Below are positions 47,746 to 57,714 of a DNA stretch of 64,000 nucleotides, one piece after another. The notes under the pieces were generated by a model that worked only from the letters and a program-made list of their open reading frames with translations, searched no databases and was not told the origin of the DNA. Position numbers and translations under genes: made by a program. Position 1 is the stretch's first letter. Every line of letters starts with the position of its first letter. This DNA is from Fibrobacter sp. (GTDB taxonomy: Bacteria > Fibrobacterota > Fibrobacteria > Fibrobacterales > Fibrobacteraceae), in contig JAKSIH010000011.1 in assembly GCA_024398935.1 (NCBI GenBank), forward strand, positions 1 to 64,000. The letters run 5' to 3'.

Positions 47746-49680
47746 ATGATGATTTGCAATAGACTGATTCTCGCTATTTTCCTGGCGGTGTCCTGTTCTA
47801 TGGCAAATTTCCTGGATACCCTTTTCTTTCGGCTGAAAGTGGATTATTCCTCGGAGGTTTCCGAGAAAGATGTTTCAGCTCTGTTGCTTGAGCAACGCCT
47901 TGACGGAACATGGCCTGGTCCTGAGTACCATAAGAAGGGGCACACGCCTATAGAGCATCTGAAAAAGGCTAGGACGTTGGCGGAATCCTACGAACATTCC
48001 TGCATGGATTCCTCTGAAGGGAAAAACGCTTCGGAACTAGAGCGCTGTGGCGTCGTAAGGGCAGCCCTGGAAAAGTCGCTGTATTACTGGTTTATCCGTA
48101 GGAATGATTTTGTAAGCGATAACTGGTGGATGAATGAAATTGGAATTCCCAGAGAACTAGCTACCATTGCATTCTTGACTTGGAATGAAATTTCCGTCTC
48201 GTTGAGACCTTTGATGATTGAATCCTTTCCGCAGGAGCCTAGCGGGAATGGTGCAAACCGAACATGGATTTCTGAACTGGTTGTAGTCCGAGGTATTCTT
48301 GAAGGTAGGGATTCCCTAGTGCGTCGGGGGTTGAGAACCATCGAGGAAACTATGAAGGTGACGGGTCAGGAGGGGCATCAAAGGGATCATTCCTATTTTA
48401 TGCATGGAAACCTTCTGTATAACGGTGGATACGGAAAAATCGCCTTGTCTATTGCTGCAAGATGGGCCGCTCTCTGCCGGGGCACACCTTATGCCTTTGA
48501 TCGCGAAAACATCACTGCCATGACGGACCTTGCCCTGGAGGGAAACCGCTGGATGATGTGGAGGGGGATGGTGGACCCCATGGTCCTGGGTCGTGAAATT
48601 TCCCGCAGGGGCGGCAATAAGGAAGCCTCTGCCTATGGGCGCATCATCGACAATTTACTGCAGGTCGATTCTTCCCGCGGGTCCGAATACCGCGCCTGGC
48701 GTGGGGAAATTTCTGGAGAAAATCACCTGTCGGGTTGCCGTTACTTTGAACGGGGACAGCTGATGGTCTGCCGCAGTGGGGAATATTTCGTATCTCTCAG
48801 GATGTCCTCGAAAAATACCGTTGGCAGTGAAAGCATCAACCGGGAAAATCGAAAGGGGTTCTGGCTTGGTGCGGGTGTACTTTCGGTTTACCGCCATCCC
48901 GATGATTTCAGGAATATCTATCCCCTGTGGAACTGGGGAATGCTTCCTGGCGTTACGTCGTCTGGCGACGGAACGCAAAATGAAAAGCGGGTGACGAACA
49001 GAAGTGAAATGGTAAACGGCCTGACGGATGGTTCTGACGGTGTTGCGACCATGATGCTTGACTATGGAAGCGTGACCGCACGGAAGGTCTGGATTTTTCT
49101 GGAGGGGACTGTAGTGGCCCTCGGAAACGGGATTGCGGAAACCTCGGGAAAGGAAACTTTTACGACGGTGGACCAGCGGCTAGTTCATTCCGAGGTGATT
49201 GTAGAACATGGGAACGGACTGGTCGAGACGCTTCCCGAGAACAAGGCTGTTGTATCCCGGAGACTCTGGCACGATGAAATTGCATACACCGACCTGGATG
49301 GCAATGGGTTTTCGGCAGTGTTCCTCCCGCAGGCTGGAAACTGGAAAAGTATAGGGACCGAGAAGGCCGAGGAGTCTGCAAAGGTCCTGAAAATCTGGGA
49401 AAGTCACGGTCGGAATCCCCGCGCGGCATCTTACGCCTATCAGGTGGATCTGCCTGTGCCCCGGGAGAAATTCCGCGGGGGAATGCCGGAGAAGGTCCGT
49501 GTCCTCCAGAATGATTCCGTCGCGCAAGTTGTTTACGATGAACGCCGTGGTGTGTTTGCGGGCTCGATTAACGCTTCCGTCGACATCACATTCCAGAATG
49601 AAAAATTATCCTTTGAAAGCCCCTGCGTTTTTATTCAAAAAGATGGTGCAAGAAAAGTTAAGAAGCTGACGTCTTCCTAG
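47746..49680 (+). CDS. PL8-like polysaccharide lyase, secreted
   Basis: A 644-residue protein with a signal peptide (ILAIFLAVSCSMA). The alpha-toroid part has NWWMNEIGIPRELA, DHSYFMHGNLLYNGGYGKI with the His and Tyr expected for catalysis, and REISRRGGNKEAS with the conserved Arg. This is the order seen in polysaccharide lyase family 8 (hyaluronan, chondroitin and xanthan lyases). The C-terminal half is beta-sandwich. Family enzymes cut next to uronic acids by beta-elimination in the periplasm or outside. It starts at ATG 47746 or, with better spacing to TAGGA, at 47749. It is the last gene of the operon and the second lyase-family gene in it. Length is shorter than many PL8 enzymes (700-800). 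Confidence 0.82.
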   Translation: MMICNRLILAIFLAVSCSMANFLDTLFFRLKVDYSSEVSEKDVSALLLEQRLDGTWPGPEYHKKGHTPIEHLKKARTLAESYEHSCMDSSEGKNASELERCGVVRAALEKSLYYWFIRRNDFVSDNWWMNEIGIPRELATIAFLTWNEISVSLRPLMIESFPQEPSGNGANRTWISELVVVRGILEGRDSLVRRGLRTIEETMKVTGQEGHQRDHSYFMHGNLLYNGGYGKIALSIAARWAALCRGTPYAFDRENITAMTDLALEGNRWMMWRGMVDPMVLGREISRRGGNKEASAYGRIIDNLLQVDSSRGSEYRAWRGEISGENHLSGCRYFERGQLMVCRSGEYFVSLRMSSKNTVGSESINRENRKGFWLGAGVLSVYRHPDDFRNIYPLWNWGMLPGVTSSGDGTQNEKRVTNRSEMVNGLTDGSDGVATMMLDYGSVTARKVWIFLEGTVVALGNGIAETSGKETFTTVDQRLVHSEVIVEHGNGLVETLPENKAVVSRRLWHDEIAYTDLDGNGFSAVFLPQAGNWKSIGTEKAEESAKVLKIWESHGRNPRAASYAYQVDLPVPREKFRGGMPEKVRVLQNDSVAQVVYDERRGVFAGSINASVDITFQNEKLSFESPCVFIQKDGARKVKKLTSS

Positions 49681-49760: not shown

Positions 49761-51035
49761 TTATTTATTGCTAGGAAAGAAAAAATCCTTAATGCGCTGG
49801 GTGGCGTTTGCATCAATATCCTTGATGAAAAGTTGACGTAAAAACTGACGCTTTTGCTTTTCGGGGTCTTTCCCCCCGGAAATTTCACGGATGGCGTTTT
49901 GCAGGCCGCTCATATCATAGGTCATGTGACCTGCACAGACAGACTCAATGGGCTCGATAAAGAACCCGCGGGTTGCCCTGTATTGTTCTATATCGTAGAA
50001 ATAGTAGATGATGGGACGGTCCAGGTACAAAAAATCGTAGACAGTGGTGGTGTAGTCCGTAATGATGCTGTCTGAAATGCAAAGCAGGGGATTGAGGCTT
50101 GTCTTGATGCTCTTGGCCAAATCCTTGTAGAAGAGAACATGCTTGCTTGCTTCCTTGGAAATGACGGAAGTCTGGGCATCCTGAATGGGATGGACCTTGG
50201 CGATGATCAGCGTTTCCGTTTCTGCCAGAGTCTTTTCTAGACTTTCCAGTTCTTCGGGTGTGACATGCCCCCAGATGGAGCGCGTGGTTGCCTTGGAAGC
50301 GTCGAAGAATTCACGGACGGAATTTTCGTAGTCCCTGTGGGTGGGCACGTAGGTAATGAGGTGCTTGAACTTGAAACCGACCAGTTCTTCGATTTGTTGT
50401 CTTAGGTCGGAGTGGTCCTTAAAGAGTATGTCGTTACGCGGGAATCCCAGGGAGAGAAAGTTGGAGTAGAAATGGCAGTTGTCTAAGGCGATAAACTTGG
50501 AGCTAATATCCGAGATGGAGAGGTGATAGTCATAAAGACGGTGCATCTCCTCCTGTTCTTTCAGCATCTTTTCGTAACCGCCGTGGTTGTCCCAGCGGTG
50601 AAATTCATTCTTGATGAGTCCGCCAAAATAGTTGAGGCAGATAATTCTTTGGTTTGGAGCTCTGTACTGAATGCGGGTATAATCGGAATCCGTAAATACG
50701 GTATAGCACCTGGAAATGGCCAGTCGGGTTCCCTTATGGTCCCTGAAACGGACGAAACGGATTCGCTCCGGATGAAAATCCTTGCAGTAGTCCTTGTAGG
50801 ATTGTAGCCTTTCGTCCTGGTAATAGAGAACATAGAACTGGTAGTCGTTGAATCTTTCATCGCGGACCATATCGTTGAAAAGACAGAGAACATTGTCGGA
50901 TTCACCGTTCAGGATGTCGTAACCGTCCAGGCGGCAGTTTTCGTGAGGGTAGAAGAATACGGCCTTCGGATTCTTTTTCGTTACCTTGTTCTTGAAACGC
51001 TTTACAGCCAATTTTAAGTTGTCAATGAGTTTCAT
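49761..51035 (-). CDS. CDP-glycerol glycerophosphotransferase family protein (TagB/TagF-like)
   Basis: A 424-residue GT-B-like enzyme without a signal peptide. The C-terminal part has the family signature: ITYVPTHRD, AKVHP (His probably catalytic), ISDSIITDYTTTVYDF, then RPIIYYFYDIEQYRATRGFF. Family members transfer glycerol-phosphate from CDP-glycerol when priming or polymerising teichoic acid; others transfer ribitol phosphate. It is the last gene of the minus-strand operon and its start overlaps the flippase stop by 14 bases. Together with the cytidylyltransferase of the same operon it implies a CDP-polyol donor. The actual donor could be a modified glycerol. Confidence 0.88.
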   Translation of the reverse strand: MKLIDNLKLAVKRFKNKVTKKNPKAVFFYPHENCRLDGYDILNGESDNVLCLFNDMVRDERFNDYQFYVLYYQDERLQSYKDYCKDFHPERIRFVRFRDHKGTRLAISRCYTVFTDSDYTRIQYRAPNQRIICLNYFGGLIKNEFHRWDNHGGYEKMLKEQEEMHRLYDYHLSISDISSKFIALDNCHFYSNFLSLGFPRNDILFKDHSDLRQQIEELVGFKFKHLITYVPTHRDYENSVREFFDASKATTRSIWGHVTPEELESLEKTLAETETLIIAKVHPIQDAQTSVISKEASKHVLFYKDLAKSIKTSLNPLLCISDSIITDYTTTVYDFLYLDRPIIYYFYDIEQYRATRGFFIEPIESVCAGHMTYDMSGLQNAIREISGGKDPEKQKRQFLRQLFIKDIDANATQRIKDFFFPSNK

Positions 51036-52473
51036 TTTTCTTCTTCTTGATTTTAGCCTTGAACAGTTCCAGCAATTCCTGCATGTCGGGGTTCTTGCGG
51101 AGCAGCAACCAGTAGAGGAATAGCGAAAGGCTTGCTCCGAGAATGATGGTTACAAGATGGGGTAGTTCCCAATAGGTCAGGAGGTAGGCTGGAATACAGG
51201 CGATAATGCAGCGCACCAGGTAAGGGGAGAAATCCTTTACCTGCTGGACATATCCCAGGTGGAAAAGTTTCCCTGTATAGTAGGTGTTGATGAACACGGC
51301 AATCTGGTTATATAGCAGTTTGGACAGGCAGATGGCAAGGACTCCGTAGGGAATGGCGCAGAGCAGAATCCCGATGGAGATGGTCTTCTTGATGATTTCC
51401 AACTTCAGGAATAAATCGGAACGTCCCTTGACTTTGAGCAGGTTCAGGTTAATGGTGCTGAGATGGTCGAACATACTGGAAAATGCGAAGGCGTGCAGGT
51501 AGATGACTGCTTCTGACCACTTGTCCGTAAGGCAGAGCAGGATGATGGGTTCCGCCAGGGCGCAGAGAATACCCGAGATAATAAAAATGCTCAGGGAGGT
51601 GATGCGAATGTACTTGCGGTAGACGCGGACCAGCTGTTCTTCGTCATCCTGGATTTTTGCAAGGATGGGGTAAGTGACGGTCTGCAGCACTCCGTTGATT
51701 GTATTGCCAGGCAGGTCCGCGAAGTGGGAACCGCGGGAGTAGAAACCTAGGTCCTTTGCGGAGTAGAACTTGCCGATGGCGAAGGTGGTCATGTTTCTGT
51801 AAATCGTATGCAGAAGTCCGGCGGCAAGGAGACGGCTGCCGAAGGAGCCCAGGCGCTTGAAGGATTCCTTGCTGAAGCCCGCTCTTGGATACCAGCGACA
51901 GATGTAACAGATGAAAACCAGGTTGATGACGGCTGCGATGATTTGCTGATAGACCAGAGCCCAGACACCGAATCCTGTATAGGCAAATGCAACACCGCTA
52001 ATGCCGCCAATGAGGGTTGCGCTTACTTTGCGTTTTGCCAGGGATTTGAAATCCAGCTTGATGTTCAGCATGGAAACCTGGACCGCCATGATGGCGTTGA
52101 TGACCAAGGTTCCCGCTTGAACTCTAAGGATGGGGCAGAGAATAGGAATCTTGAAAAAGTCTGCTACCCAGGGCGCTGCAAAGAACAGCGATATATAGAC
52201 TGTAACAGAGATGGCCAGGTTGAAGTAAAAGACCGTGCTGAAGTCTTTTTCCGTAGGGTCCTTGGTACGGATCAGGGCGGAACTGAAACCGCTGTCGATG
52301 AACGCCTGGGAAATTTCAAAGAAAATGGCCAGCAGTCCAATTGTTCCATAATCCGAGGGGAGCAGCAGGCGGGCCATGACTACGCCAAGCAGGAACTGGA
52401 TTCCCTGTACGGAAATCCTTTCGATGAAGTTCCACTTGGAACCGCTAATCGTCTGCTGCTTGATGGAGGCCAT
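51022..52473 (-). CDS. Wzx-like polysaccharide flippase
   Basis: A 483-residue inner membrane protein with about 12 to 14 hydrophobic segments. The N-terminus SGSKWNFIERISVQGIQFLLG and MARLLLPSDYGTIGL are hallmarks of the RfbX/WzxC-type polysaccharide exporters, as is the SRGSHFADLPGNTINGVLQTV segment. It flips lipid-linked glycan units across the inner membrane. It lies nine bases after licD. The C-terminus is a short basic stretch (KIKKKKN). It may serve this operon, the convergent exopolysaccharide operon, or both, since that operon has a polymerase but no flippase. Confidence 0.92.
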   Translation of the reverse strand: MASIKQQTISGSKWNFIERISVQGIQFLLGVVMARLLLPSDYGTIGLLAIFFEISQAFIDSGFSSALIRTKDPTEKDFSTVFYFNLAISVTVYISLFFAAPWVADFFKIPILCPILRVQAGTLVINAIMAVQVSMLNIKLDFKSLAKRKVSATLIGGISGVAFAYTGFGVWALVYQQIIAAVINLVFICYICRWYPRAGFSKESFKRLGSFGSRLLAAGLLHTIYRNMTTFAIGKFYSAKDLGFYSRGSHFADLPGNTINGVLQTVTYPILAKIQDDEEQLVRVYRKYIRITSLSIFIISGILCALAEPIILLCLTDKWSEAVIYLHAFAFSSMFDHLSTINLNLLKVKGRSDLFLKLEIIKKTISIGILLCAIPYGVLAICLSKLLYNQIAVFINTYYTGKLFHLGYVQQVKDFSPYLVRCIIACIPAYLLTYWELPHLVTIILGASLSLFLYWLLLRKNPDMQELLELFKAKIKKKKNETH

Positions 52474-52482
52474 GGGCTTTGC

Positions 52483-53310
52483 CTAACGGTTCTTCCAGTA
52501 GAACTTGATAAAGGACTGGTGGGGTTCCCGCTGGTCCTCCGGAGGGAGTTGCATGTAGTCTCCATAGACGGCGCGGAGGTTTAGGTCGTAGTCTTTCATC
52601 ACGTAGAACTGAGCGTCCTCGAATTTCAGGAGCCGTCTTTCGTCAAAAGCACTTACGGGAATGTGCTCCACGGGACCGTTGTCCATGACGGCTAGCTGAG
52701 ACCAGTAGTTTGCGGTTTCAAAAGGAATCCTTCGGATTTTCTCGTTGTATTCCTTCTGCATGCGATGACCGCCTAGACCATTTTTTTGCCGCCACTTGTT
52801 GCGGAGCAGTTTCAACTTGTTCTTGAGTCCCTTGCAGTGCGAAATTCTCTTGAACTGAATTTTCTTGGGGATAATGCGTTCCCATTCCTGGTGCAGTTCC
52901 TTGTAGAGAGCTGCAAATTCCTGAGGGTCGTCAGGGACACCGTCCAGAGGGAACACGTCAATCCACACGCCTGCCGGCTGGGCAATCCAGTGACCGTTCT
53001 TTGCTATGGTTTCCCTGTTGTCGAACACGCGGGCATAGGCGATGAGGCTGTCGTACTTGCAGCCTTCTCCAAAGAAGGCCAACTGGAACTTTTCCGACTT
53101 GAAGGTCTTGATAAAACGCTCATAGTCGGGACGGGGCATGCAGATGTCGATGTCGTTATCCCAGGGAATAAAGCCCTGATGCCGTACGGCTCCAATCAAG
53201 GTCCCGTATGCCAAAGAATACCTGATGTTTTCCCTTTCGCAGAATTGGTGGACTTCCTTCAGGATGCCCAGGGAAAAATCGTGGAGTTCGTCGTTAGTCA
53301 GTTCCCGCAT
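52483..53310 (-). CDS. LicD family phosphotransferase
   Basis: A 275-residue protein of the LicD/fukutin-like nucleotidyltransferase fold. YGTLIGAVRHQGFIPWDNDIDI carries the GxxG(A)VRH motif and the metal-binding DxD (DNDID) at about residues 48-55; WIDVFPLDGVPDD follows as usual. LicD enzymes transfer phosphorylated head groups such as phosphocholine from CDP donors onto glycans. The ATG at 53310 shares bases with the stop of the aminotransferase gene (TAATG), which fixes the start; a long upstream open extension is discarded. The linked CDP-forming enzyme suggests the donor is made in the same operon. Confidence 0.92.
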   Translation of the reverse strand: MRELTNDELHDFSLGILKEVHQFCERENIRYSLAYGTLIGAVRHQGFIPWDNDIDICMPRPDYERFIKTFKSEKFQLAFFGEGCKYDSLIAYARVFDNRETIAKNGHWIAQPAGVWIDVFPLDGVPDDPQEFAALYKELHQEWERIIPKKIQFKRISHCKGLKNKLKLLRNKWRQKNGLGGHRMQKEYNEKIRRIPFETANYWSQLAVMDNGPVEHIPVSAFDERRLLKFEDAQFYVMKDYDLNLRAVYGDYMQLPPEDQREPHQSFIKFYWKNR

Positions 53311-54383
53311 TAGATGAAGCCTTTCTTCTGCAGGTCTTTGAACGCATCCACCAGCTTGTCGTAGTCTGCGTTGGTCAAGGCACCGATGTGACCGACTCGG
53401 AAAATGGTATCCTTCATGTCGCCACCGTTGGGGCAAATCCACATGCCGTATTCGTCCTTAATCTTTAGGAAGATGTCGTTGGCGGAGGCGGTCGTGGGGT
53501 GAAGAGGAGTTACCGCATTGGATAGTGATTCGGAAACAATCTCGAAGGGAAGGCCCTTGATTTGTTCGCGGAAATAATTCGCGAGAGCCGCGGTTCGTTT
53601 GATTTCGGCTTCTACACCGCCATTTGCCTTGATTTCCAGAAGTCGTGCATGGATTTGACGGAGAATGCCTACCGCGGGGGTCCAGGGCGTCTGGCCGCGT
53701 TCGGCGTTCTTTAGGGCAAGCTTAAGATCCAGATACTGGCACTTGCATTTGGTTTCCTCGACGCGCTTCAATGCTCTTGGGGAAAGTGCCATGACGGAAA
53801 TTCCCGGAGGACAGGCGAGAGCCTTCTGGGAGCCGGTTATCATGATGTCTGCCCCCAGTTCTTCCATGTGAAAGGGGTCGGCGAGGAAAGTGCTAATGCA
53901 GTCTACGATCAGGAACAGGTTGTTGCGTTTGCAGAAATCACTTATGAGGTCCATGTCGTAATGGACTCCGGTAGAGGTCTCGTGCTTGTTCACGACGAAG
54001 GTGGTGTAGCCCTTGCCTTCAAATTCCTTAAGGTGTTCTGGCTTCAGGGCCTTGCCTGCCGGGAGTTTTACCTCGGAAAAGGGGATTTCGTGAAGTTCGC
54101 AGAGCTCCACAAAGCGGTGACCGAAGCTACCTCCGTTGATGACGATGGCCTTGTCCTTGGGTGTTAAGGTGTTCATGATGGCGGTTTCCATGCCGGCAGA
54201 ACCGGAACCTGTTATGAACACAACCCGGGAATCTTCGGATGCGTAGGCAAACTTTTTGACCAGAGTTTCGTTTTCCAACATGAGCTGGGAGAATTCTGCG
54301 GTACGGAAATAAGGGACCTGTTCTGCACCGATGGCGCGGACTGCTTCGCTAGACTGTACAGGACCCACGGTAAAGTTAATCAT
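53310..54383 (-). CDS. Class V aminotransferase (AGXT/PhnW-like)
   Basis: A 357-residue PLP enzyme of the serine-glyoxylate/2-aminoethylphosphonate-pyruvate transaminase group. It has [13 protein letters not shown] at the N-terminus, [14 protein letters not shown] for cofactor binding, [18 protein letters not shown] with the Asp, and [12 protein letters not shown] with the Schiff-base Lys near residue 190. The start at 54383 has GAAGG nine bases upstream; an upstream open extension of about 110 codons is out of family and rejected. PhnW-like enzymes act on phosphonates, but no phosphonate synthesis gene (PepM, Ppd) is in the window. Its operon partners are a cytidylyltransferase fusion and LicD, so it may aminate an intermediate of a CDP-linked head group. 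The substrate is inferred. Confidence 0.88.
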
Positions 54384-54406: not shown

Positions 54407-55750
54407 TTAAATTTCGAAAAAGTTCTTGTGCTCGCTGAACTGTTCCATAATTTCTGCCATGCAGATACTTTCCCTGCGGCGAAGTCTTGCGGAACTGAAG
54501 CGATGGTTGTAAATGCAACTGATAAATTCCTGGATTTCGTAGCGCAGGCCGAAACCGTCCCACTTGTAGAAGAATTTCTTGTTGTCGTTCTGGTTTTCGT
54601 AACGGAGCTCGAAGTAGTCTGTTTTCCACCAGGGGGCGGGAACGTAGGCGTATCCCTTTGTTCCCGAAATTACAAGGTCGCCCTCGGTCTTTACGCCAAG
54701 TCCCACCTTGAAGGAACATACCGCCTTGGGATATCTCATGACGCCCTTGGTGTGAATGTCTACGCCGTTTTCCATGCGGGAGAAAAGTTCCAGGTTCTGG
54801 TAGTTGATGCCCATTAATTTAAGGATGGGAAGCAGCGGGTAGGATCCCTGCTCGAACATGGCACCGCCGGCTTGCTTTGGGTCAAATTCGCGACCGCTCT
54901 TGTCCAGCAACTGGGAAAGAGATGCTTCTATGTCCACCACGTCGCCAATGAGGCCTGACTTGATCATTACCATCAGGTGGTTGAATGCGGGGCAATGTGC
55001 CGTCTTGTTGGCTTCCATCAGGATGACGCCCTGTTCTTCGGCCAGCTGGTACAGTTCCTTGGCTTCGGCTCCCTTTAGGACCATGGGGGTTTCGCATAGA
55101 ACATGCTTTCCCGCAAGGAGCGTTGTCCTGATATTTTCATAGTGAGCAAGATGGGGGGTGGCAATATAGACTGCGTCCACATGGTCATAAAAATTCTGGA
55201 GATTTTCATAGGCGTTCACACCGTTGAATTCTTCAGCGAAGCTTTTGCTTTTGGCCGGGTCCAGGTCGTAGCATGCAATCACGGATACGCCGCTAACCAC
55301 ATCCGCTTCCATCGGGAAACGTCGAGCGACACGGCCACAGCCAAGAATACCCATCTGGACAATGTCCTGGGATTCTGCTCTAAGCATAGTGGAGGAAATA
55401 CCTTCGGTACGGGGGAGGTACACCACCTGGCAAAATTCGTTGAGGTAATCGAATTTACCTTCCCAGTCGCTACCAATGGCAAAAATGTCCACATTGTATC
55501 TCTGGATGTCGTCAATCTTTTGTCCGACGTAGTCCTCGATAATAATCTGGTCGGCAAGACCCGTGGCGCGTACGGCATCTACGCGTTCCAGAACATTGTT
55601 GCGAACGTTCAGCTTACCGCGGTCACGGTCAAAGTTGTCGTTGGTCACGCCTACAATGAGGTAGTCCCCGAGAGCCTTGGCACGCTTGAGCAAATTGATG
55701 TGTCCCTGGTGCAAAAGGTCGTAAGTTCCGTAGGTGATTACTTTTTTCAT
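54407..55750 (-). CDS. Fused TagD-type cytidylyltransferase and Gfo/Idh/MocA oxidoreductase
   Basis: A 447-residue bifunctional protein. Residues 1-135 are a glycerol-3-phosphate cytidylyltransferase-type domain: [17 protein letters not shown] with the HxGH motif (residues 14-17), then RDRG and [11 protein letters not shown] with the family ISST motif. After a linker of under ten residues, residues 145-447 are an NAD(P)-dependent Gfo/Idh/MocA oxidoreductase: [13 protein letters not shown] as the Rossmann Gly motif, YIATPHLAH, and [14 protein letters not shown] where the family has EKP. The start ATG at 55750 gives the exact TagD N-terminus; TATATT at 55794-55789 on this strand could be a -10 box. 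TagD enzymes make CDP-glycerol from CTP and glycerol 3-phosphate. The fusion couples activation and oxidation of one substrate. It precedes the aminotransferase by 23 bases. Confidence 0.9.
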
Positions 55751-55821: not shown

Positions 55822-57714
55822 TTACGGCATCAAAAGATTCTTGTCGAGCACCCAAACCCACGAATTCATGGCGTCCAAAAGGGCCTTGGCTTCCGCAGAG
55901 ACATCTTTGTCCATTTTTTGCTCGGCAATAAATCCGCCGATAGTTTCTGTGGTGTCCCAGTTAACGGTTTTGCTTTGGAACCTGGCGTGAGCAAATGCCT
56001 TGTTTCCCGATTGGGCGAAGACTGCTATGCTGTCCTTGCGCATAATGGCATCGTGGTGCCTAAAGGAGAAGGTGGGGGATGCTTCGTCTGAAAAAAGATT
56101 GTGTCCCACAAAATGGTTGGTCGCCTGGATGCCAAGCTGTTCTAGGATGGTGGGGGCGAAATCCACATGGGAAACGGGTCTTGTTACAGACAAACTTTCT
56201 GGAATGCCTGCGCCCGCCCAGATGAACGTGGTCCAGGTATAGGTACTGTTGGCTTCACCCAGTTCGTCGCTTTTCTTTTGTGCCTTGGCGTTTGCTATGG
56301 AGTGGTCTCCCGTGACAATGATAATTGTCTTGTCTGCACGAGGACCTTTTTCGATGGCGTCTAGAACAATTCCTATGGCACTGTCCAGGTAGGCTACCGC
56401 CTGACCATAGCGTTCGTCGGAGGTTTTTGCAGGAGTTGCATAGGATTTAGGAACGTTAAAGGGGGTGTGGGTGACGAAATTGATCCACTCGAAATAGAGG
56501 GGCTTGTCCTGAGGGCGGTTTTCGTACATCTCCTTGAACCGGTTTGCCAGAGGAATGTCCGTATTGACTTTCGGGTTGTATTCGTGAACGTCAAACCATT
56601 TTTCGAACCAGGGGGAGAAATTGTCAAAGCTGGGTTCGGCCGCACTAAGTACAATCCTGTGGTAGCCCGCCTCTCCCAAAATTTCCGGGAGGGCTCGGGA
56701 TTTTACATTCATCAGGCTGCTCAAGAATATCTTGTTGGGATGGCTCCAGATGCCAAGCTGTAGTCCGAGCATTCCCTCCGTAGAGGGGTATCCTACGCTG
56801 TAAGTGTAGGGAAACGAGGTTCCCCTCTGGCTAAGTCTACAGAGGTTTGGCATCCGGGAACAGTTCTTGCCGATTCTAAAATCTCCAACCCAGCCGCGGA
56901 AACTTTCCAGGGATAGCAAGATAACATCCTTCTTTTCCGAGAGCGGCTTTGTCTTGAAGGATTCCATCAATTCACCTTCATGCTCGACAAGATGGTAAAA
57001 GGGGTAGTCGGCCTGTGGATTACCTCCCAGCAGGGCAATTCCATTTTCAAAGTTCTCTGGTTTTATGCTGTGCTTTTTCTGATATTCCAGATCTTCAAGA
57101 AGGGTGATGTAGGGAGGCTGAATTCGTTGCCAGCGGATATGACAGGCTTTGATAAAGTGATGGGAGTTCCCTGTCACGAAGGCAAGAGCTGTTGCCAGTC
57201 CTATAAAGGTCAGGGAAGGAATCTTTCCTGATTTCTGAAACACTTTTTTTCGAAGCGTCCAGACCAGGAGAAAACCGGTAAGCACAATGATGGCGATGGC
57301 TACCGCGAAATTCCAGAGTCCCTCGGAAACGATATTTACGAACAGGGTCGGTTCCAGTTTGGATACGGAATAGGTGGAGAGAAAGGATAATGTCAGGTGT
57401 TGACCCATCCAGCGCATAATCTGGTCATTGATTCCGCAAAGGATCAGGTAGGCCATGGTCAGAATGGATACGGTAACAAACCAGACTTGCTGAAAATTTT
57501 TCCTGATAAAAATTCCTAGGGAGAACAAGGCTGCTGTCAGGCCGAATGCGGCGAAGTCCGCGATAGCTGCGGTACTGAGGCCAAGCAGAGGCCGCTCTAC
57601 GAAAGGCCCTCCCGATGGCGTATCCCAGAAATACAGCTGAAGAAGTTGTAAAAGCCTGGCTCCATAGGATACTGCAAAAAAAATCAGGAAGTACAATTTG
57701 ACATTAAACTTCAT
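55822..57714 (-). CDS. LtaS/MdoB-like phosphoglycerol transferase (sulfatase fold)
   Basis: A 630-residue membrane protein. Five transmembrane helices lie in the first 185 residues, then a large extracytoplasmic sulfatase-fold domain (about 260-630). VILLSLESFRGW carries the first metal-site acid, GYPSTEGMLG the likely nucleophile Thr near residue 313, and VTGDHS the conserved Asp-His near residue 466. This is the architecture of lipoteichoic acid synthase and of the MdoB/OpgB enzymes that move phosphoglycerol from phosphatidylglycerol onto glycans in the periplasm. Phosphoethanolamine transferases are a related alternative. It is 71 bases upstream of the fusion gene and may lead the operon. 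Its start lies only 89 bases from the divergent SppA gene. Confidence 0.87.
   Translation of the reverse strand: MKFNVKLYFLIFFAVSYGARLLQLLQLYFWDTPSGGPFVERPLLGLSTAAIADFAAFGLTAALFSLGIFIRKNFQQVWFVTVSILTMAYLILCGINDQIMRWMGQHLTLSFLSTYSVSKLEPTLFVNIVSEGLWNFAVAIAIIVLTGFLLVWTLRKKVFQKSGKIPSLTFIGLATALAFVTGNSHHFIKACHIRWQRIQPPYITLLEDLEYQKKHSIKPENFENGIALLGGNPQADYPFYHLVEHEGELMESFKTKPLSEKKDVILLSLESFRGWVGDFRIGKNCSRMPNLCRLSQRGTSFPYTYSVGYPSTEGMLGLQLGIWSHPNKIFLSSLMNVKSRALPEILGEAGYHRIVLSAAEPSFDNFSPWFEKWFDVHEYNPKVNTDIPLANRFKEMYENRPQDKPLYFEWINFVTHTPFNVPKSYATPAKTSDERYGQAVAYLDSAIGIVLDAIEKGPRADKTIIIVTGDHSIANAKAQKKSDELGEANSTYTWTTFIWAGAGIPESLSVTRPVSHVDFAPTILEQLGIQATNHFVGHNLFSDEASPTFSFRHHDAIMRKDSIAVFAQSGNKAFAHARFQSKTVNWDTTETIGGFIAEQKMDKDVSAEAKALLDAMNSWVWVLDKNLLMP

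Follow-up and report, generated by a model that had tools for sequence, protein, structure and literature searches.

CDP-activated head groups, among them ribitol, glycerol, choline and ethanolamine, govern the interactions of bacterial capsules and teichoic-like polymers with host organisms and phages. In the CDP-ribitol synthase Acs1/Bcs1 the cytidylyltransferase (CT) is of the IspD type and the reductase of the SDR type. Pairs of a Gfo/Idh/MocA oxidoreductase (Gfo) and an aminotransferase acting on a nucleotide-activated sugar are known from GnnA/GnnB and WbpB/WbpE, which use UDP-sugars, are encoded by separate genes and have aminotransferases of the DegT type. In Haemophilus a fused reductase-CT makes CDP-ribitol, according to a passage of PMC4873967 which cites Follens 1999, and HS5.18/HS5.17 and Mnp1/Mnp2 convert CDP-6-fructose to CDP-glucitol or CDP-mannitol (PMC10918830). 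LicD proteins move phosphate along with the head group (PMC4873967), and Cj1437, a PLP enzyme of Campylobacter, makes serinol phosphate from dihydroxyacetone (phosphate) (PMC12409886).

The window analysed here, a stretch of 64,000 nucleotides from a gut Fibrobacter genome that is 82.6% complete, carries a TagD-like CT joined to a Gfo oxidoreductase in one chain. The fusion and the genes around it have the following features:

54407-55750, minus strand: CT-Gfo fusion gene, an open frame of 447 aa supported by Pfam and conserved at full length in 80 loci
55373-55750, minus strand: TagD-like CT domain, residues 1-126 (PF01467, 66 bits; PDB 1coz/2b7l, E ~1e-35)
54410-55360, minus strand: Gfo/Idh/MocA oxidoreductase domain, residues 131-447 (PF01408 and PF22725; fold matches)
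55325-55351, minus strand: NAD(P)-binding motif GILGCGRVA, residues 134-142, intact (sequence and alignment)
55085-55093, minus strand: ETP, residues 220-222, replacing EKP (sequence)
54839-54841, minus strand: Tyr304, the usual catalytic Tyr/His position, assigned by alignment and kept in 79/80 of the clade
55822-57714, minus strand: LtaS/YejM-like sulfatase-superfamily membrane protein (PF00884; LtaS and YejM models below cut-off)
53310-54383, minus strand: class-V aminotransferase of 357 aa, the partner gene (PF00266)
52483-53310, minus strand: LicD-family phosphotransferase, abutting the aminotransferase end (PF04991, 161 bits)
51022-52473, minus strand: Wzx/TuaB-type flippase (PF13440, 307 bits)
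49761-51035, minus strand: CDP-glycerol glycerophosphotransferase-like protein (PF04464, 151 bits)

The fusion gene and its neighbours

A single uninterrupted frame had been placed at 54407-55750 by the preliminary description, and the coordinates proved right on reading the ORFs; the strand, which it left unstated, is minus. The frame check puts the ATG at 55750 and the stop at 54407, and the plus-strand frame over the same interval is interrupted by stops. Both domains that had been named were recovered, all Pfam matches exceeding their cut-offs: CTP_transf_like at residues 5-125 (66 bits, cut-off 21), GFO_IDH_MocA at 132-246 (79.7 bits, cut-off 24) and GFO_IDH_MocA_C3 at 260-368 (36.6 bits, cut-off 27). 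An AlphaFold2 model built from 22 family sequences (mean pLDDT 90.3, pTM 0.76) has two well-formed domains, the last CT helix spanning residues 120-127 and the first Gfo strand 131-136, so that the linker is about five residues, in keeping with the fewer than ten first supposed.

The best structural matches of the CT half are TagD/TarD (1coz, 2b7l), and the motifs H14-x-x-H17 (HxGH) and RTEGISST, which are near-invariant across the fusions, together with the PF01467 match agree with the TagD-type HxGH/ISST domain that had been described. Its score against TIGR01518 (TagD) is 118.4 bits, under the equivalog cut-off of 165.4. It is the sole GCT-like match in the window's genome at the completeness given above. 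It stands beside a PF04464 enzyme, which needs such a donor, and this counts in favour of the cassette proposed below.

The Gfo half, the only Gfo match in the same incomplete genome, finds its best folds in 3e9m, dimeric dihydrodiol dehydrogenase and KijD10. The GxGxxA dinucleotide motif is present as GCGRVA, and the lysine of the family's EKP motif (PF01408) is replaced, the protein reading ETP. This replacement, already remarked on in the preliminary description, turned out to be a property of the whole clade to which the window belongs (ETP in 70/80, EIP in 10/80), while EKP is found in 24 mostly Bacillota fusions. In the same clade the NAD motif, PHxxH, RE and Tyr304, whose catalytic role we presume from relatives, are nearly invariant even though identity over the Rossmann domain is only 53-61%, which indicates that this half is under selection and is probably active. 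We did not accept that the window's Gfo half is dead, given this conservation of NAD and active-site residues. Lys249 was considered as a substitute for the lost Lys221 and rejected as a specific explanation, because EKP-containing fusions also have Lys (or Arg) at 249.

On the minus strand the genes are ordered as LtaS-like protein, fusion, class-V aminotransferase, LicD, flippase and PF04464 phosphotransferase. The LtaS/YejM-like gene, upstream of the fusion on its strand, is presumably a member of the operon; such a gene also adjoins the fusion at one other locus (L014). A CDP-linked surface-polymer setting for the fusion is supported. The aminotransferase matches PDB 3f0h with 507 bits, and it is nearest to the PhnW/BhcA models, all below their cut-offs; against the PhnW models it scores 116 bits for TIGR02326 (cut-off 401) and 150 bits for TIGR03301 (cut-off 361). 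The entry 3f0h is titled only 'Aminotransferase', and the fusion-linked family may give it a context. A polysaccharide lyase family 8-type protein is encoded at 47746-49680, convergent with the cassette.

Distribution of the fusion and exchange of its partners

The fusion is spread over three bacterial phyla, and we examined 123 examples from Fibrobacterota, Bacteroidales and Lachnospirales. The best 80 matches of a species-level genome scan were all full-length fusions of Fibrobacter and Bacteroidales with 69-86% identity, the isolates Xylanibacter muris and Prevotella sp. MGM1 being among the hosts. The abundance of the fusion in Bacteroidota is that seen in these best 80 matches and nowhere else, a phylum-wide scan with a strict cut-off having found no further fusion in 295 additional Bacteroidota genomes. 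Within the window's own genus the distribution is patchy. More distant fusions (about 46-58% identity) occur in Bacillota, apparently Lachnospirales, an assignment derived partly from the gene content of the loci. Roughly a tenth of the sampled Lachnospirales-type genomes gave a match (23/246 and 20/200), some of which are the oxidoreductase alone.

In a tree of CT domains every fused CT falls into one clade, which a long branch separates from the stand-alone TagDs, with a single change between the fused and the separate state; neither this tree nor the genome scan yielded a detached relative of the fused CT. As far as sampled, the fusion thus appears to have arisen once. The preliminary description would have been undermined had the homologues always been separate genes, and they are not: in this family the fused form is the norm, and the search for it elsewhere together with its neighbours found it conserved in the 80 loci and in the distant Bacillota. 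An assembly chimera or a chance joining of frames might be suspected in a window drawn from a fragmented draft genome, but dozens of independent genomes, isolates included, encode homologues of full length, which rules it out and leaves it a practically negligible probability. The bifunctional architecture is real and conserved, and it is apparently undescribed, no description of a CT-Gfo fusion having been found in the literature searched. One locus (L170:581-2455) encodes a triple fusion of 624 aa, in which a second TagD-like cytidylyltransferase precedes the CT and Gfo domains.

The most informative feature, overlooked by the preliminary description, is the partner gene. In Bacteroidales and Fibrobacter the fusion adjoins nearly always exactly one of four kinds of partner: a class-V aminotransferase, as in the window, a HisC-type aminotransferase, or a member of either of two SDR families, both retaining the GxxxGxG and YxxxK motifs. 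The partner lies mostly directly downstream, often with a 4-nt overlap, and the kinds are almost mutually exclusive (co-occurrence was seen at one locus, L080). The partner class switches 22 times on the fusion tree. Beyond the partner stand LicD or CDP-glycerol-type phosphotransferases, and LicD/PF04464 genes lie near 75 of the 123 fusions. Aminotransferase and SDR loci are split by position 297 alone (A vs S), which is uninformative; a GNAT acetyltransferase accompanies 3/35 aminotransferase loci against 0/88 others, and no SDR locus. At L186:6711-11879 an NAD-dead fusion is flanked by genes for a thiamine-diphosphate enzyme and for an iron-containing alcohol dehydrogenase, which may represent a fifth kind of partner.

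The fusions fall into three groups according to their residues. Group I, mostly Bacillota, has EKP intact and, save for two fusions, no aminotransferase or SDR partner; its members are sometimes followed by another Gfo gene or by one for a glycerophosphodiester phosphodiesterase (GDPD). In the EKP fusions that do have a partner (L176 and L184) Tyr304 is lost instead. Group II, also mostly Bacillota, adjoins an aminotransferase in most cases and has lost the NAD motif, including GxGxxA, as well as PHxxH, RE and Tyr304, despite which the C-terminal elements K-x-E-G, P-W-W and E-x-R-Y-E are largely retained. Group III, comprising Fibrobacter (with the window) and Bacteroidales, has Thr or Ile in place of Lys221 with the other NAD and active-site residues near-invariant, and a partner is present at every locus but L045, where the contig ends. 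The loss of Lys221 traces to a single event below groups II and III. A partner accompanies none of the 21 fusions with the Lys221/Tyr304 pair intact and 97 of the 102 in which it is broken (Fisher p = 3e-19 over 123 fusions), the rows being related by descent, so that only about three independent changes lie behind the table and a sign test restricted to independent pairs does not reach significance.

The class-V aminotransferases beside the NAD-dead fusions of group II are 54-73% identical to those of group III, and one HisC-type pair, beside an NAD-dead and an NAD-intact fusion, is 81% identical. At most group II loci the neighbouring genes included no further oxidoreductase. A stand-alone second Gfo gene with EKP intact directly follows the fusion at L102, L161, L164, L168 and L182, where a divergent TagD-like gene and a PF04464 gene are found further downstream. 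Proteins of about 830-860 aa recur beside partner-less fusions (L183:4763-7312, L105, L163, L164, L168, L176, L181); the L183 copy is without any Pfam match, and the C-terminal part of the L105 copy is TagF-like by eye. Some relatives (L165, L193) have a flagellin-like gene nearby.

A proposed cassette for CDP-linked head groups

The explanation that we tentatively prefer, while giving it somewhat less than an even chance, is a modular cassette for CDP-linked head groups in which the partner would set the chemistry, the CT activate, LicD transfer, and the Gfo half be an altered ancestral carbonyl reductase. It starts from what the sequence shows, namely the fusion, the gene order, the exchange of partners, the residue pattern and the orthologous aminotransferases beside NAD-dead fusions, and for the substrate, the direction and the order of steps it might run as follows. 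The CT half would use CTP to attach CMP to a small phospho-alcohol or amino-alcohol, most probably one of the three-carbon glycerol type; we infer the latter from the TagD-like CT, the PF04464 neighbours and the GDPD links of the Gfo relatives. The partner would perform the carbonyl chemistry which decides the product, an aminotransferase giving an amine and an SDR an alcohol. In the window the aminotransferase would aminate a carbonyl compound drawn from general metabolism, the natural guess being conversion of dihydroxyacetone phosphate to serinol phosphate, and LicD or glycerophosphotransferase-type enzymes would place the head group on a surface glycan as a phosphodiester.

Since orthologues of this aminotransferase serve NAD-dead fusions, the fused oxidoreductase is probably not the source of its carbonyl substrate; taken with the lack of an adjacent oxidoreductase at most group II loci, this points to general metabolism as the source. 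Orthology at this level is no proof of an identical substrate. The Gfo half may descend from a carbonyl reductase that did the carbonyl step itself in partner-less ancestors. Intact-pair fusions lack an aminotransferase or SDR that could use up an oxidised product, which suggests that the ancestral reaction was the reduction of a carbonyl to an alcohol, as it is in the fused CDP-ribitol synthases (PMC4873967) and in the pairs making CDP-glucitol and CDP-mannitol (PMC10918830). The family lysine would then have been lost in the window's lineage when exchangeable partners took over. Here the Gfo half still appears to bind NAD and may keep some altered redox or binding role; this possible role in group III is the weakest point of the proposal. 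A stronger version, which we consider unlikely, has the Gfo half giving up catalysis and serving as a binding or scaffold domain of a widespread CDP-headgroup synthase, whose interchangeable partners would diversify LicD-transferred head groups (for example CDP-serinol versus stereoisomeric CDP-glycerols) on gut-bacterial surface glycans. Close Gfo relatives are fused to, or precede, a GDPD: fusions of about 590-660 aa lacking a cytidylyltransferase were seen at L195:5848-7833, L196:6029-7906 and L197:5949-7805, with others at L198:5131-7047 and L199:5954-7720, and Pfam confirms the architecture for L195, L197 and L198.

The preliminary description supposed that the fused oxidoreductase may oxidise a CDP-activated polyol. 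In its fuller form the Gfo half would oxidise a CDP-polyol or polyol phosphate to a carbonyl, to be aminated by an aminotransferase or reduced again by an SDR with a different stereochemical outcome, on the pattern of the UDP-sugar Gfo/aminotransferase pairs. The conserved NAD motif and Tyr304 of the window's clade, the nearly constant aminotransferase or SDR partner in it, and a fold resembling that of GnnA and KijD10, whose substrates are nucleotide sugars, speak for this. It is unsupported as originally stated, because the orthologous aminotransferases adjoin NAD-dead fusions, most with no other oxidoreductase in the adjacent genes, and because the fusions with Lys and Tyr intact have no neighbouring aminotransferase or SDR to use an oxidised product. 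Such an oxidation is possible, but less likely than chemistry supplied by the partner, and we regard it as rather improbable.

A synthase resembling Acs1/Bcs1, in which an active Gfo half reduces a ketose phosphate or CDP-ketose to a polyol, the CT activates and the aminotransferase serves another step, has precedents in the Haemophilus enzyme and in Campylobacter HS:5 and Mnp1/Mnp2, where activation precedes the reduction of CDP-fructose (PMC10918830), and it would suit the partner-less EKP fusions. The window protein, however, is without the EKP lysine, and its aminotransferase belongs to a tightly linked set which interchanges with SDRs, so that we think this model distinctly unlikely. Much less probable still is a phosphonate head group, for which a PhnW-like transaminase would make aminoethylphosphonate, the CT activate it as in PntC systems and LicD transfer it. 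PF01467 and LicD do occur in phosphonate clusters (PMC6697681) and PhnW/BhcA are the nearest models of the window's aminotransferase, but the PhnW scores are far under cut-off, and PEP mutase is missing from 19/21 fusion-bearing genomes, which disfavours phosphonates: it is absent from the window's incomplete genome and from 18/20 others, among the negatives being four Fibrobacter genomes listed as 99-100% complete.

Comparison with known systems

If the exchange of partners works as we propose, the neighbouring gene would predict the head group chemistry, and the family would record a bifunctional enzyme losing one activity to a neighbour. The swappable gene sets that accompany the fusion probably serve to decorate surface sugars with unusual phosphate groups.

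The CT half resembles TagD/TarD (1coz, 2b7l) over its full length and shares HxGH and RTEGISST with them, a conserved R44-G-K46 corresponding to K44-Q-K46 of TagD. It differs in reading GSDW for GDDW and in the lack of conservation at the position of TagD Trp74; unlike TagD it forms a separate clade on a long branch, is joined to an oxidoreductase and falls below the TIGR01518 cut-off. With Acs1/Bcs1 the fusion has in common an oxidoreductase and a cytidylyltransferase in one chain for a CDP-alditol. The combination of a TagD-type CT with a Gfo-type oxidoreductase and an exchangeable partner gene sets it apart: by Pfam, PF01467 is its only CT match, with no IspD-type CT (PF01128), and the chain has a Gfo-type domain in place of an SDR-type reductase. 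HS5.18/HS5.17 and Mnp1/Mnp2 likewise use a CT and an oxidoreductase on an open-chain CDP-linked sugar (PMC10918830), but as separate genes and with PF01128 and PF01370. GnnA is also a fold match of the window's Gfo half, and GnnA/GnnB and WbpB/WbpE differ from the fusion in having no CT domain. The PntC/aminoethylphosphonate pathway similarly brings together a class-V transaminase, nucleotidyl activation and LicD (PMC6697681), but requires the PEP mutase that most fusion hosts lack. The known kind to which this locus belongs is that of a CT plus an oxidoreductase for CDP-linked head groups, and what is distinctive here is the exchangeable partner.
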